34,113 bases of DNA from a virus. The position numbers and the translations under genes were made by a program. Positions 54-33,872 of this stretch are shown piece after piece (position 1 is the first letter of the stretch; the number at the start of each line of letters is the position of its first letter). The stretch lies in IMG/VR virus record IMGVR_UViG_3300041407_000182, positions 1 to 34,113 of that record; one strand, given 5' to 3'. The notes beneath the pieces were generated by a model. That model worked only from the letters and a program-made list of their open reading frames with translations. It searched no databases and was not told the DNA's origin.

Positions 54-127
54 GCGGGTGTCGTATAATGGCATTACTCCAGCTTCCCAAGCTGATAACG
101 AGGGTTCGATTCCCTTCACCCGCTCCA
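54..127 (+). tRNA. tRNA-Gly (anticodon CCC)
   Basis: The gene folds as a normal cloverleaf with a 7-bp acceptor stem (GCGGGTG with CACCCGC). The anticodon loop is TTCCCAA, closed by CAGC/GCTG. It has the T-loop sequence GTTCGATTC and an encoded CCA end preceded by discriminator T. The loop reads CCC as anticodon, hence glycine. The 5' half is chromosomal, and the 3' half from position 81 is supplied by the phage attachment core, so integration restores an intact gene. Confidence 0.95.
81..127 (+). repeat. attL core (47-bp direct repeat of tRNA 3' end)
   Basis: These 47 bases, starting AGCTTCCCAAG and ending CCCGCTCCA, recur exactly at 33826-33872. They cover the anticodon arm, T-arm and acceptor 3' strand of tRNA-Gly. 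This is the usual position for tyrosine-integrase crossover, and phage-specific sequence begins at 128. Confidence 0.93.
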
Positions 128-1243: not shown

Positions 1244-1355
1244 GGAAGAGACGCTTGCAGTGCTCCGCTACCCCCAACCCTCATGAGTAGCTTATGCTGG
1301 GTCTCCACCGGGCCTGTGCCAAACCAGCTGCTTATGTTTTGAAATGGAGATTCGA

Positions 1356-2204
1356 ATGAAGGTTGAGACAATTGCTGAGCAACTGCTTTTCACCACTGTC
1401 AAAATAGAAACCGTGCATCCGAATGCTACAGGCTTTGGGACCGGCTTTTTTTTTATTCATGAACATCAAGGCGGCGAATACCCGTTCATCGTAACCAATA
1501 AACACGTCATAAAAGGAGCGGTGGGAGGAAAGCTAATATTCACGCAAAAAGGAGCTGACGGGGAGCCGCTCATCGGCCAACGCGTCACCCTAAATATGAA
1601 GCAAGAGGTATGGGAAGAATCGTGGTTCGGTCACCCGGACCCAGCTATTGATATCGCTGTAATGGCTCTAGAGCCTTTAATTCAGCAAGTTTCTGAAATG
1701 TTCCCAGTTGGGATTTTTTACATCGGGCTGAATGTCGGAATGATGCCCACCGCCGAGCAACTTAGCCAACTTGATGTACTCGAACAAGTCGCATTTGTTG
1801 GCTATCCAAACGGAGTATGGGACTCCAAGAACCTCATACCCATTATGCGACGGGGCACAACCGCAACGCCTCTGACATTGGACTTTGAAGGCGAGCCAAA
1901 ATTTTTAATTGATGCTTCGGTTTTTGGGGGGTCAAGTGGAAGCCCAGTGTTTATTTTAGATAATGGATTAGTTACAGACAGAAATGGCACGACTTCAATG
2001 CGCTCGCGCATTCATTTCATTGGCGTCATTGCACAGGTCTATCACCGAACCGACTTAAATGCAGTGATTGCAATCCCTATTCCTACACAGTATCAGCCAG
2101 GTGTCGAGACTAAACAGATGATAGATCTCGGAATCGTGATCAAGGCCCGAACGGTGGTTGAGGCGATCATGGCCTACCTGGCTATTCATGCTGAGCCTGA
2201 GTGA
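1356..2204 (+). CDS. Stand-alone trypsin-like serine protease (cargo gene)
   Basis: This 282-aa protein has the chymotrypsin/HtrA-like fold signature: His50 in TNKHVI, Asp99 in AIDIAVM and Ser194 in GGSSGSPVF. It has no signal peptide, membrane segment or PDZ domain, so it is probably a cytoplasmic single-domain protease. The start is ATG 1356 behind TGGAG; an ATG 12 bases upstream lacks a ribosome site. It is the only + strand gene at this end, converges on the late operon and is more AT-rich than the phage genes. These traits fit an independently expressed moron. Trypsin-like domains are effectors in several bacterial anti-phage systems, so defence is a reasonable guess but unproven; a virion-related processing role is less likely. 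Confidence 0.85.
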   Translation: MKVETIAEQLLFTTVKIETVHPNATGFGTGFFFIHEHQGGEYPFIVTNKHVIKGAVGGKLIFTQKGADGEPLIGQRVTLNMKQEVWEESWFGHPDPAIDIAVMALEPLIQQVSEMFPVGIFYIGLNVGMMPTAEQLSQLDVLEQVAFVGYPNGVWDSKNLIPIMRRGTTATPLTLDFEGEPKFLIDASVFGGSSGSPVFILDNGLVTDRNGTTSMRSRIHFIGVIAQVYHRTDLNAVIAIPIPTQYQPGVETKQMIDLGIVIKARTVVEAIMAYLAIHAEPE

Positions 2205-8713: not shown

Positions 8714-10240
8714 TCAATACTTAATGCAGGCGAGCAAGGCGACGTTGCGAGAGCGAGCCTCGGTGCCGCCGGACGATGCGATTTCAATGGGGTGATCGTG
8801 TTCGCCATCTTCCTGGGTAGTGGCCACGCCTTCGCCGTAGTACGGCTCGTCACCCCAGAGGGCGTTACCGTCACCGCCTGGGCCGCGGTCGAGTTTCAAA
8901 TTCAGGACGTGGGAATGCCTGCCTGAGCGGCCGACAGTCCCGGTGTGGGCATGGTTAGCGTTCTGGCCGATTTGCCAGCTGCCCAGGGCGCGGCCGCTGT
9001 CGACACCTCGTCCGTTGTCCCAACCTCGAAGGAACTCGCCTCGAAGGTCCGGGAGGGAAAAGGTCGTGGTGCCGTCACCGACTCCGTGCGTAGTGCCAAT
9101 GCGCTCAAACAAGGCCGCGTAGGTGATCCGCGATACCGCAGCCCCGTTCGCACGCAGCCAGCCCGTCGGCGGCACTGTCATGGGGAACATGCTGACCATG
9201 CCGGTCAAGTTGCCGTTGAGGCTGCTCATGAGATCGAACAAGGCCTTGGTGGTGGCCAGAATGTCGCTGCTGTTGGTGGCAGGGTCGTCGCTCTTGGCGT
9301 TGGGTAACTGGTCGAGGCCGACGTCTTCTTTGGTCGTCGCCCGGGCGCGCAAGTGTTCGTAGTCACCATCACGCGCGGCAAAATGCTCAACCAGGGCTTT
9401 GGTGATCGGCTGAACAGCGCGCAGGTCGGTGATGCCACCCGTTGCCGTCAAACTAGCCAGCGGCACCACGTAATGCTGATTACCGTTGCCGTCTTTGTAG
9501 TCGGCTTTGGCCGCCCCAAAGACCACCGTCCACCCAGCAACTACGTCGCTGCCCACATGCGCCAGGTAAACGTCGAGCCAGGCTTTGGCCGGAAGTGCTG
9601 GTAGCTGAACGAAGGTCGCTGCGTTCAATACGACCCTGACGCCTTCGATATAGGCCATGCCCGCTTTTAGCTGGTACAGGCCCAGACTGTTGCGCTCCAG
9701 CTGTAAGCTGTCATTGAAGAAACAGGCGCGCCCGTAGATGTCGCGGTTGCTCAAACGCTCGCGCTCATCAATGCCGTTCAAGCGGATCGTGAAGTCGTGT
9801 TGCCAGGTGCTGGCGTCGACAACAAGGCCCGTCAGCGCCTGGGCCCCACTGAACTCCACCAGGAAGTTGCGAGTGATGTTGTTGCCGATCTGCAGCGGCG
9901 GGATGTTGCGGCGTTTCTGCTGCACGGGCACGTAAGCGACGGCGAGCAGTACGTTTTCCGCCGTCTCCAGCCCGATCCAGTTGAAGTCCCAGTCGCCGAC
10001 ATCAGAGCCGACCATCAGGCTGTAAATCACCTGACGCGGGCTGACGAAGCCTTTGCGGTTCACATTGGCCGTGTAAACGATTTGGTTGGCCGGAGGCTTG
10101 ACGCCAGCCCGATCAACCGCTGCATTAGCATTCAGCCCCGGTACGTAGGCGAGCACAAACCGCGCAACGTCCAGTACCTGTTGAGCCGCCTGCTTCTGCG
10201 CAATGAGCGTCTCGCCGGCAAGGGTAATACTAGCTCCCAT
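8714..10240 (-). CDS. Tail fibre protein (gpH-like) with collar domain
   Basis: This 508-aa fibre has an N-terminal baseplate-attachment region of the DUF3751/gpH type (MGASITLAGETLIAQKQA, WIGLETAENVLLAVAYVP). A phage tail collar domain lies at about 350-430 (GWLRANGAAVSRITYAALF, FSLPDLRGEFLRGWDNGRG). The distal part has paired HxH motifs (NHAHTG, RHSHVL, EHDHPI), likely iron-binding as in T4 gp37-type tips, and ends VALLACIKY. The start ATG 10240 follows AGGAG by five bases and overlaps the I gene by 11 bp. It differs in kind from the SGNH spike further on, so the phage has two receptor-binding systems. Confidence 0.88.
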   Translation of the reverse strand: MGASITLAGETLIAQKQAAQQVLDVARFVLAYVPGLNANAAVDRAGVKPPANQIVYTANVNRKGFVSPRQVIYSLMVGSDVGDWDFNWIGLETAENVLLAVAYVPVQQKRRNIPPLQIGNNITRNFLVEFSGAQALTGLVVDASTWQHDFTIRLNGIDERERLSNRDIYGRACFFNDSLQLERNSLGLYQLKAGMAYIEGVRVVLNAATFVQLPALPAKAWLDVYLAHVGSDVVAGWTVVFGAAKADYKDGNGNQHYVVPLASLTATGGITDLRAVQPITKALVEHFAARDGDYEHLRARATTKEDVGLDQLPNAKSDDPATNSSDILATTKALFDLMSSLNGNLTGMVSMFPMTVPPTGWLRANGAAVSRITYAALFERIGTTHGVGDGTTTFSLPDLRGEFLRGWDNGRGVDSGRALGSWQIGQNANHAHTGTVGRSGRHSHVLNLKLDRGPGGDGNALWGDEPYYGEGVATTQEDGEHDHPIEIASSGGTEARSRNVALLACIKY

Positions 10241-31524: not shown

Positions 31525-31598
31525 GCAGCTATTTCTGCAAGGGGAAGCGTTATGACCGTAGATACCTGACGATAAACGAGGGTAATCAAGTTGAGTAA
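31521..31598 (+). CDS. Tiny ORF linking early gene to AlpA-like gene
   Basis: This 25-codon frame (MSSYFCKGKRYDRRYL and nine further residues) starts in an ATGA overlap with the previous gene and ends over the TTG start of the next. It may be a real small protein or only a translational coupler. A GGGG-containing stretch inside it does not serve its own start. Confidence 0.35.
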   Translation: MSSYFCKGKRYDRRYLTINEGNQVE

Positions 31599-31794
31599 GC
31601 TGGATCGTTTCATGAGAGAAAGGGACGTGATCGCGGCGACGTCTCTTTCACACTCCACTATATGGCGCGCCATGAAAGACGGGCGTTTCCCTAGGCAGGT
31701 GTTGATCTCACCGGGCAGAGTCGGCTGGAGAGAGTCAGCGATTATTGCTTGGCAGGCAAACCCTGCCAGTTGGCAAGCAGCAAAAAGCATCTGA
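31591..31794 (+). CDS. AlpA-family regulator, probable excisionase
   Basis: This 67-aa protein has the AlpA winged-helix signature: REREDVIAATSLSHSTIWR-type helix-turn-helix (actual residues 8-27), MKDGRFPRQVLISPGRVGW and ESAIIAW. TTG 31591 is preceded by GAGGG at suitable distance; ATG 31612 is an alternative. Lying close to int, it probably acts as directionality factor or regulator of int. Confidence 0.82.
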   Translation: MSKLDRFMRERDVIAATSLSHSTIWRAMKDGRFPRQVLISPGRVGWRESAIIAWQANPASWQAAKSI

Positions 31795-31801
31795 ATCGTT
31801 A

Positions 31802-31840
31802 AGGCACAATTCCATCGACAATTCGATGGAAGTTGTGCCT
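31802..31840 (+). other. Long near-perfect hairpin before cargo gene
   Basis: AGGCACAATTCCATCG and CGATGGAAGTTGTGCCT form a 16-bp stem with one bulged base and a 6-base loop. No U-tract follows (GTCTTGG). It sits between the early operon and the HEPN-like gene. It may end or process the early transcript, or be a protein binding site. Confidence 0.6.
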
Positions 31841-31895: not shown

Positions 31896-32402
31896 ATGAA
31901 TGCAGAAAGCAAAAAAATTTCGGACCAAACACCATTTGCACATAGTGAAGTAATCCGCATGTACGGTTTATTCATGATCGCATGGTCAGTTCTAGAAGCT
32001 GTCATCCAAACTGCAATCATGAAAGAGCTAGAGCTGGCACCGGAAAAAACGATAATGATCACTGGGAAAATGCAATTCCACCCACGTCTTCAGTTGCTGT
32101 GTCCGCTACTCAAGCTTCACGGACAAAAGCACAAACAGGCGATTGAATTATTGAACAAGTTCGAGTCATTTGCGCATCGCAATACCATTGTTCACGGCCT
32201 TGTTATCGTCGGCGTTCCAGACCAACTCACGTTCGTGAAGTACGACGGTGGTGCTAGTGCATCGCGAAGCTTCACAAGTGCCGAGCTGACGAAACACGTC
32301 GTAGGATTGAACGATAGGGTTGAAACTCTTCAAAAATTACTGGACATCAGCAATGCTGATATGCAGCAAATAATCGACGCTACGTTGGCCGGCTGCAAAT
32401 AA
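31896..32402 (+). CDS. HEPN-like protein with Rx4H motif (cargo candidate)
   Basis: This 168-aa mostly helical protein contains FESFAHRNTIVHG at residues 89-101, giving Arg95-Asn96-x3-His100, the Rx4-6H signature of HEPN ribonucleases. A hydrophobic N-terminal helix (RMYGLFMIAWSVLEAVIQTA) could make the dimer face. AGAGGAAGAG precedes ATG 31896. It is AT-rich (mid-40s percent GC by eye), convergent with int and separated from the early operon by a long hairpin, all typical of a moron. Abortive infection or superinfection exclusion is plausible; no antitoxin gene is adjacent. A non-enzymatic HEPN-like role is possible. Confidence 0.7.
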   Translation: MNAESKKISDQTPFAHSEVIRMYGLFMIAWSVLEAVIQTAIMKELELAPEKTIMITGKMQFHPRLQLLCPLLKLHGQKHKQAIELLNKFESFAHRNTIVHGLVIVGVPDQLTFVKYDGGASASRSFTSAELTKHVVGLNDRVETLQKLLDISNADMQQIIDATLAGCK

Positions 32403-32455: not shown

Positions 32456-33655
32456 TTAATCAGTTGTTACAACGTTCTTCTGTAGCCACAACGACCAGCG
32501 CTGTAGTCCTCGCTGCTTCTCTTTGAAATAGTCGTACCGATCGTAGTGTTTGGACGACACATCGTTAAATGCGTGGCCTTGTATCCGATCGCGCAATTCC
32601 TTGTCCAAGCCCGCAACCCCCATTAGCGTTTTACAGGTCCGTCGAACGTCACGAAGGGTGAACGGCCCGTCGAACAGTTTTGTGTGTCGGCTGTAAAGCT
32701 TCGTCACCGCTCTGGACAACGATTGAGTGTGCAGGGGCTTGTCTTCCATCTTCCCCATGAACCGATAGGCACTCGTTTCGCTGATCTCATCCAGAGTCTT
32801 CAGACTTTTCCGCATCAATCTGTTGTACGGCACTGCGTGCAAGATCCGCTCACCGTCGACGCCCTTGAGGTTACGGATCACCAGGTGATCGTCGAAGTAC
32901 TGCTTTCGCGTAGTGCCCAGCAATTGTTGGGGGCGCTGGCCACCTGACGCGATCAGGAACTTGATCAGCTCAGACGTCACAAGCGATAGCTGTTCGGGCA
33001 GCAAATTCCATAGGGATTTTAGTTCAGCAACGGACAACGCCCGATTCCCTGGTTGCTCCCAGTCAGCCTGCACGGGAATGCTGGCCACCGGATTGCTCAG
33101 TAAACCGAACTGGACCTTGTTCTGCAGATAGTTGCGCGGGTTGTGCTCTTGCTCCAAACCCAACTGGAACGCGGCGTGCAGTTGCGATCGCACGCGGTTG
33201 CAGTAGGTGGTGATGCCGTTGTCGATCATCCTCGCAATAACAGTACGGATCTCGACCGGTCCAATCATGGCGACCGGACGCTCGACCATTTGTGGAAACG
33301 GCCGAGTCACATAGCGTTCAAAGGAGCTTTTCACGTCCTCGACTGACGCTGCATTCTCAGCCCGCAGCTTGGCGATGTAGTTGTCCATCAGTTGCTGGAA
33401 CGTGCCCGCCGAAATTACCAGTTCCTTTTCTTCACGGCAGTTATCCCTGGCTGCGGTCAAGCTCAACCCCGGCCATGTGCCCAGCTTTGTGAGTTTCTTC
33501 TTTCCGCCAACGAAGCGTTGAAAATAGAACTCCTTTGTCCCGTTCGGGCGAATCTTGAGTATCAATACTCCCTCCCCCCTCGCACTACGCCCGTCCGAAA
33601 TAACGTATGGATTTTCCCGTGGCTGCAGCGCTCGTATCTGCTTATCCGTGAGCAT
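32456..33655 (-). CDS. int: Tyrosine-recombinase integrase
   Basis: This 399-aa integrase has an N-terminal DUF4102-like arm-binding domain (about 1-80), a core-binding domain (85-185) and a catalytic domain with Arg241 (SGGQRPQQLL), Lys264, Arg338 (LRDVRRT), His361 (QGHAF) and nucleophile Tyr371 (KHYDRY). The usual His of box II (HxLR) is Arg335, a substitution I recall in related phage integrases. The gene starts 170 bp from attR and inserts the phage into tRNA-Gly. Confidence 0.92.
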   Translation of the reverse strand: MLTDKQIRALQPRENPYVISDGRSARGEGVLILKIRPNGTKEFYFQRFVGGKKKLTKLGTWPGLSLTAARDNCREEKELVISAGTFQQLMDNYIAKLRAENAASVEDVKSSFERYVTRPFPQMVERPVAMIGPVEIRTVIARMIDNGITTYCNRVRSQLHAAFQLGLEQEHNPRNYLQNKVQFGLLSNPVASIPVQADWEQPGNRALSVAELKSLWNLLPEQLSLVTSELIKFLIASGGQRPQQLLGTTRKQYFDDHLVIRNLKGVDGERILHAVPYNRLMRKSLKTLDEISETSAYRFMGKMEDKPLHTQSLSRAVTKLYSRHTKLFDGPFTLRDVRRTCKTLMGVAGLDKELRDRIQGHAFNDVSSKHYDRYDYFKEKQRGLQRWSLWLQKNVVTTD

Positions 33656-33825: not shown

Positions 33826-33872
33826 AGCTTCCCAAGCTGATAACGAGGGTTCGATTCCCTTCACCCGCTCCA
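33826..33872 (+). repeat. attR core (47-bp direct repeat)
   Basis: This is an exact second copy of 81-127. Upstream it is followed leftwards by an extra tRNA-like block (33804-33816 equals 65-77), but with a 9-base instead of 3-base spacer, and the acceptor 5' strand is absent. It is therefore not a working tRNA. Chromosomal DNA starts at 33873. Confidence 0.92.

Follow-up and report, generated by a model that had tools for sequence, protein, structure and literature searches.

The gene at positions 31,896 to 32,402 (+) of the window, by which we mean the whole 34,113-nucleotide stretch of viral DNA that was analysed (IMG/VR record IMGVR_UViG_3300041407_000182), probably encodes a small stand-alone endoribonuclease of the HEPN superfamily, carried as single-gene lysogenic-conversion cargo, that blocks superinfection. 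The HEPN family and fold predicted for its product are fairly well supported; its defence role, dimerisation, RNase activity, target RNA and trigger are proposed by analogy. The features of the window that bear on this reading are as follows:

81..127 (no strand): attL, the 3' part of tRNA-Gly(ccc), a 47-bp direct repeat
1344..2204 (+): cargo next to attL, a trypsin-like protease and candidate for defence (PADLOC PDC-S45, E 3e-95; phrog_7688)
31591..31794 (+): alpA, early regulator, left border of the cargo slot (PF05930, E 1.5e-15)
31803..31839 (+): long hairpin in the gap from alpA to the HEPN gene
31896..32402 (+): candidate HEPN-type RNase of 168 aa, motif R95-N-T-I-V-H100
32178..32195 (+): RNTIVH codons (residues 95-100, Rx4H motif)
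32456..33655 (-): tyrosine integrase, right border of the cargo slot
33826..33872 (no strand): attR, an identical 47-bp repeat

The open reading frame is intact and, as an earlier note on this DNA had claimed, the ATG start is preceded by a ribosome site of its own, AGAGGAAG. The same note's description of the gene as AT-rich agrees with its GC content of 45%, compared with 58% for the window, and RNTIVH is indeed found at residues 95-100 when the motif is read from the translation: HRNTIVHG occupies residues 94-101, and R95-x4-H100 with an asparagine directly after the arginine is the HEPN form. Because 19% of shuffled versions of the window protein have a plain Rx4H (2.2% have R[NDH]x3H), the motif alone is weak evidence in this protein, and it is the conservation of HRNTIVHG in homologues (below) that gives it added weight. 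Scans of the window protein and its homologues with Pfam, PADLOC, PHROGs and NCBIfam returned no significant family (neither the best PADLOC match of the window protein, P0001 at an E of 0.034, nor the match of the L005 homologue with Csm6, at an E of 0.014, is significant). The curated HEPN families, Pfam models included, gave no sequence match to the window protein, and PDB sequence searches yielded nothing useful. A sensor domain, a conserved partner and a clear promoter were looked for, and none was found for this gene. Antisense open reading frames of 87 and 55 aa overlap it, with no support that either is a gene.

The alpA-integrase slot of an HP1-like prophage

Bounded by 47-bp repeats in tRNA-Gly, the prophage in the window is complete; it is an HP1-like member of the Peduoviridae, and its host is a Pseudomonas-type bacterium. 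Its tail sheath is 81% and 67% identical to those of Pseudomonas phages UFJF_PfPro and phi3, respectively; its identity with the sheaths of HP1, HP2 and phiO18P is 44-46%. The earlier description of the phage as P2-like is thus right at the family level, as the closest named phages, UFJF_PfPro and phi3, are Peduoviridae. The HEPN gene sits between alpA and the integrase gene, which is the position between early operon and integrase that had been ascribed to it. Among 13 integrase relatives this slot is empty in eight, in which alpA and the integrase gene nearly touch and six of which share an inverted repeat that resembles a terminator and lies around the stop codon of alpA, and the other five carry different cargoes: a one-TM-type protein, a RelA/SpoT-domain protein, a GNAT protein, a DUF6864 protein accompanied by a small membrane-type one, and an RDRITH protein of 241 aa (TM assignments were made by eye). 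Two of these cargo genes are located as follows:

L025 1483-2514 (-): RelA/SpoT-domain protein, 343 aa (PF04607, E 3.4e-21; PADLOC PDC-S33)
L032 3030-3755 (+): protein of 241 aa that matches no family, RDRITH (R[NDH]x3H in 6.5% of its shuffles)

The first is possibly of the toxic small-alarmone-synthetase type, and the second may be another, unrelated HEPN-like cargo. The comparison of related prophages that the earlier note had proposed, which looked for replacement of the gene by known defence genes, therefore found the slot either empty or occupied by other accessory genes, one of which, the RelA/SpoT-domain gene, matches the phage-defence-candidate model PDC-S33. The slot has the make-up of a defence-cargo hotspot in prophages, with variable genes, defence-like ones among them, between two conserved phage genes. 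In phage phi3 an annotated reverse transcriptase gene directly adjoins the integrase gene (L010 1071-2756, +), and it is possibly an RT-type defence cargo.

The long hairpin that had been said to set the gene apart is real (31,803-31,839; z -3.0, no shuffle equally stable) and is probably the terminator of alpA and the early operon, but it is not conserved alongside the gene in the homologue contexts. A function as a regulatory RNA was rejected for it, as Rfam has no match and the hairpin is not conserved with the gene. The HEPN gene follows directly on the early operon that ends in alpA and has the same orientation. Read-through from that operon when the prophage is induced would therefore give expression of the gene, and an HEPN RNase made in this way could serve the phage's own programme, for example by cutting host RNA or shutting down host translation after induction. 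We consider this unlikely in view of the hairpin that separates alpA from the gene, of the opposite orientation to the tail genes, typical of prophage cargo, that the homologues have in lambda-like phages (below), and of the slot being empty in most relatives, which indicates a lytic cycle that does not need the gene.

Homologues and their gene contexts

Only three phage homologues, at 52-57% identity, were found in 2.9 million IMG/VR contigs, and with the window protein and one remote plasmid homologue just five sequences are known:

L002 4986-5495: phage homologue
L004 22-540: phage homologue (the same locus as L017)
L005 1087-1596: phage homologue (the same locus as L018)
L034 3977-4372 (+): remote plasmid homologue, HEPN-like, on Ancylobacter plasmid pLGM

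The Ancylobacter sequence was the one convincing plasmid match in a tblastn search with the L005 homologue; the window protein itself gave no tblastn match in phages and plasmids, and genome-contig scans for the gene found no homologue. L003 and L007 were rejected as homologues because they are motif coincidences. The plasmid homologue aligns over 51 columns (hhalign probability 95%) and is probably truncated, since it lies directly 3' of an IS3 transposase gene and is missing the N-terminal part.

The phage homologues come from lambda-like Pseudomonas phages; at L017 and L018 they are situated among the tail genes and are read in the direction opposite to gpK and gpJ. L017 has relatives in Pseudomonas phages Medea1 and phiAH14a, both of which have other genes in the same tail interval, and in the tail-region island of L018 the strand opposite to the HEPN homologue encodes, immediately downstream of it, a 372-aa protein with no family match (8869-9987, -). 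The L002 homologue is 0.7 kb from an Imm_superinfect gene:

L002 3949-4287 (-): Imm_superinfect (PF14373) plus SHOCT protein, in the accessory island of the HEPN homologue

No flanking sequence is common to the four gene contexts, and for this reason the HEPN gene appears to move alone. That finding also bears on a possible role of the gene product as the toxin in an addiction or toxin-antitoxin module that would keep the prophage stable and whose antitoxin or regulatory RNA has escaped recognition. HEPN toxins do occur as the toxins of HEPN-MNT systems (PMC7641770), but in the four contexts no neighbour, RNA or flank is conserved, the genes adjacent to ours are alpA and integrase rather than a nucleotidyltransferase gene, and Rfam finds nothing, and we judge this explanation to be quite improbable.

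The trypsin-like protease gene, at the opposite end of the prophage from the HEPN gene, is AT-rich as well (GC 47% versus 58% for the window). Its product matches only two of 50,697 public phage records at E 1e-5; L017 nevertheless has a PDC-S45 homologue about 0.5 kb away from its HEPN gene, and PDC-S45 thus occurs in two of the four phages that have a HEPN gene. We give little credence to the more elaborate idea that the HEPN proteins form a new minimal defence family in temperate phages of Pseudomonas and act together with this separately encoded protease, which would cleave or release the HEPN protein on infection.

Conservation and predicted fold of the protein

Conservation of R95 and H100 among homologues had been set as a test of the original claim, and both residues are present in all four full-length proteins, the window's included, and in the remote plasmid homologue. 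Three blocks are invariant in the four phage proteins, ITGKxQFxPR, HRNTIVHG and LTFxKYDGGAS. The RNTIVH of these proteins is RNDILH in the plasmid homologue, where R, N, I and H are kept and the adjacent H, T, V and G have changed, and this retention in so remote a relative supports the HEPN RNase reading. An asparagine directly follows the arginine in all five sequences; in the HEPN superfamily this residue is N, D or H, and an Ex3[KR] motif is found in many, not all, of the families (PMC3710099). The latter, an optional and non-defining acidic feature, was not found in helix 2 of the homologue alignment. For the two closest homologues, L004 and L005, dN is 0.15 and dS is 1.64, a dN/dS of about 0.09 that indicates strong purifying selection on the protein.

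AlphaFold2 gave a poor model of the window protein from a four-sequence alignment (pLDDT 59), and structure searches with it matched nothing, HEPN proteins included. When the L005 homologue was the query, the best model had a pLDDT of 76.6 and a pTM of 0.73 (the pLDDT of the other four models was below 54), with helices at residues 12-43, 47-55, 59-71, 78-94, 126-146 and 151-166 and a beta-hairpin at 109-124. In this model R93, the equivalent of R95 in the window protein, ends the 78-94 helix and H98 is in the loop after it, so the motif falls at the end of helix 3 if the short 47-55 helix is counted as an insert among the core helices (our assignment). The end of helix 3 is where HEPN domains have their motif, and a hairpin directly after the motif has been described for Csx1 (PMC3710099). 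Alignment of the L005 model to 988 chains with VIA-align ranked the HEPN domain of human sacsin first (3o10; Z 7.4, rmsd 3.1, 102 residues aligned), a score at which helical bundles may have only a common arrangement, as Z values below about 13 are inconclusive for them. Eight entries of the top 20 belong to the HEPN superfamily; besides the sacsin domain, the top 20 include MtlR (3brj, 6kcr), HEPN toxins (8xdj, 8yuf, 7ae6) and PaREP HEPN-T (2jpu, 2q00). Foldseek alone was not significant with the L005 model, and HEPN proteins were absent among the best 50 matches listed; a BFVD search with it returned nothing beyond an unnamed protein (E 0.027, TM 0.50). The check for a HEPN core that the earlier note had suggested thus gives a HEPN-like predicted fold for the homologue, within the stated limit on Z, whereas for the window protein the model is uninformative.

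The presence of MtlR among the structural neighbours would fit a catalytically inactive HEPN-fold protein that, like MtlR, binds RNA or regulates, but inactive families lose the motif (PMC3710099) and here the full Rx4H with N after R is kept even in the remote homologue, which makes such a protein very unlikely. Least probable of all is a non-HEPN helical protein with a coincidental motif, for although there is no family match, Foldseek is not significant and the window protein model is poor, the residues R, N, I and H stay the same as those next to them change, and HEPN entries are enriched among the structural neighbours of the L005 model, in contrast to the poor model from the same family, which yields no HEPN entry.

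Proposed action and relation to known HEPN systems

The preferred reading, a HEPN RNase that blocks superinfection, can be framed by analogy with characterised HEPN RNases and with the prophage system Tha as follows: two subunits would pair and their RNTIVH motifs would form one metal-independent RNase site; the protein would be made from the silent prophage and would be inactive until a phage component activates it; once active it would cut cellular or phage RNA and cause growth arrest, and as a result the superinfecting phage would fail. In Tha of Staphylococcus aureus prophages, which has the motif RNSIMH, H270 is required and tail proteins are the activators; Tha-1 is a 301-aa protein in which a poorly predicted N-terminal region precedes a C-terminal HEPN domain, and a small antisense inhibitor, Ith, overlaps its gene (PMC11087260). 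The window protein and Tha-1 and Tha-2 are all prophage-encoded HEPN proteins with near-identical motifs (RNSIMH in Tha-1, RNTIVH here), a likeness that comes from the motif and not from sequence comparison. At 168 aa, however, the window protein does not have the two-part layout of about 300 aa, and no overlapping antisense inhibitor has been identified for it.

An Rx4H with N at the end of helix 3 (in the L005 model) is common to the window protein and to HEPN RNases such as the HEPN-MNT toxin and Csm6/Csx1 (PMC3710099), and the beta-hairpin after the motif in the same model is a further likeness to Csx1; unlike these systems, the window gene has no nucleotidyltransferase or CARF partner domain and no curated HEPN Pfam match. 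AbiF, whose prophage form is described in PMC12373285, and Abi2 are also HEPN effectors in prophages, but here Pfam finds no Abi2-family match and Rfam no RNA regulator. With regard to location, K139/phiO18P-like prophages have a defence hotspot between cI and integrase (PMC9122126). It and the slot described here are both variable accessory slots on the integrase side in related Peduoviridae, but here alpA takes the place of cI as the other border, the slot when filled usually has one cargo gene, and in most relatives it is empty. These hotspots support the defence reading without proving the case of this particular gene.

The results indicate that Pseudomonas temperate phages carry an unannotated HEPN family, and that the alpA-integrase slot of HP1-like prophages is a compact, testable accessory slot. 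If the gene does block phages, it would represent a stand-alone HEPN defence of very small size, and the question would then be how a short protein with no separate sensor domain senses infection and at the same time spares its own prophage.
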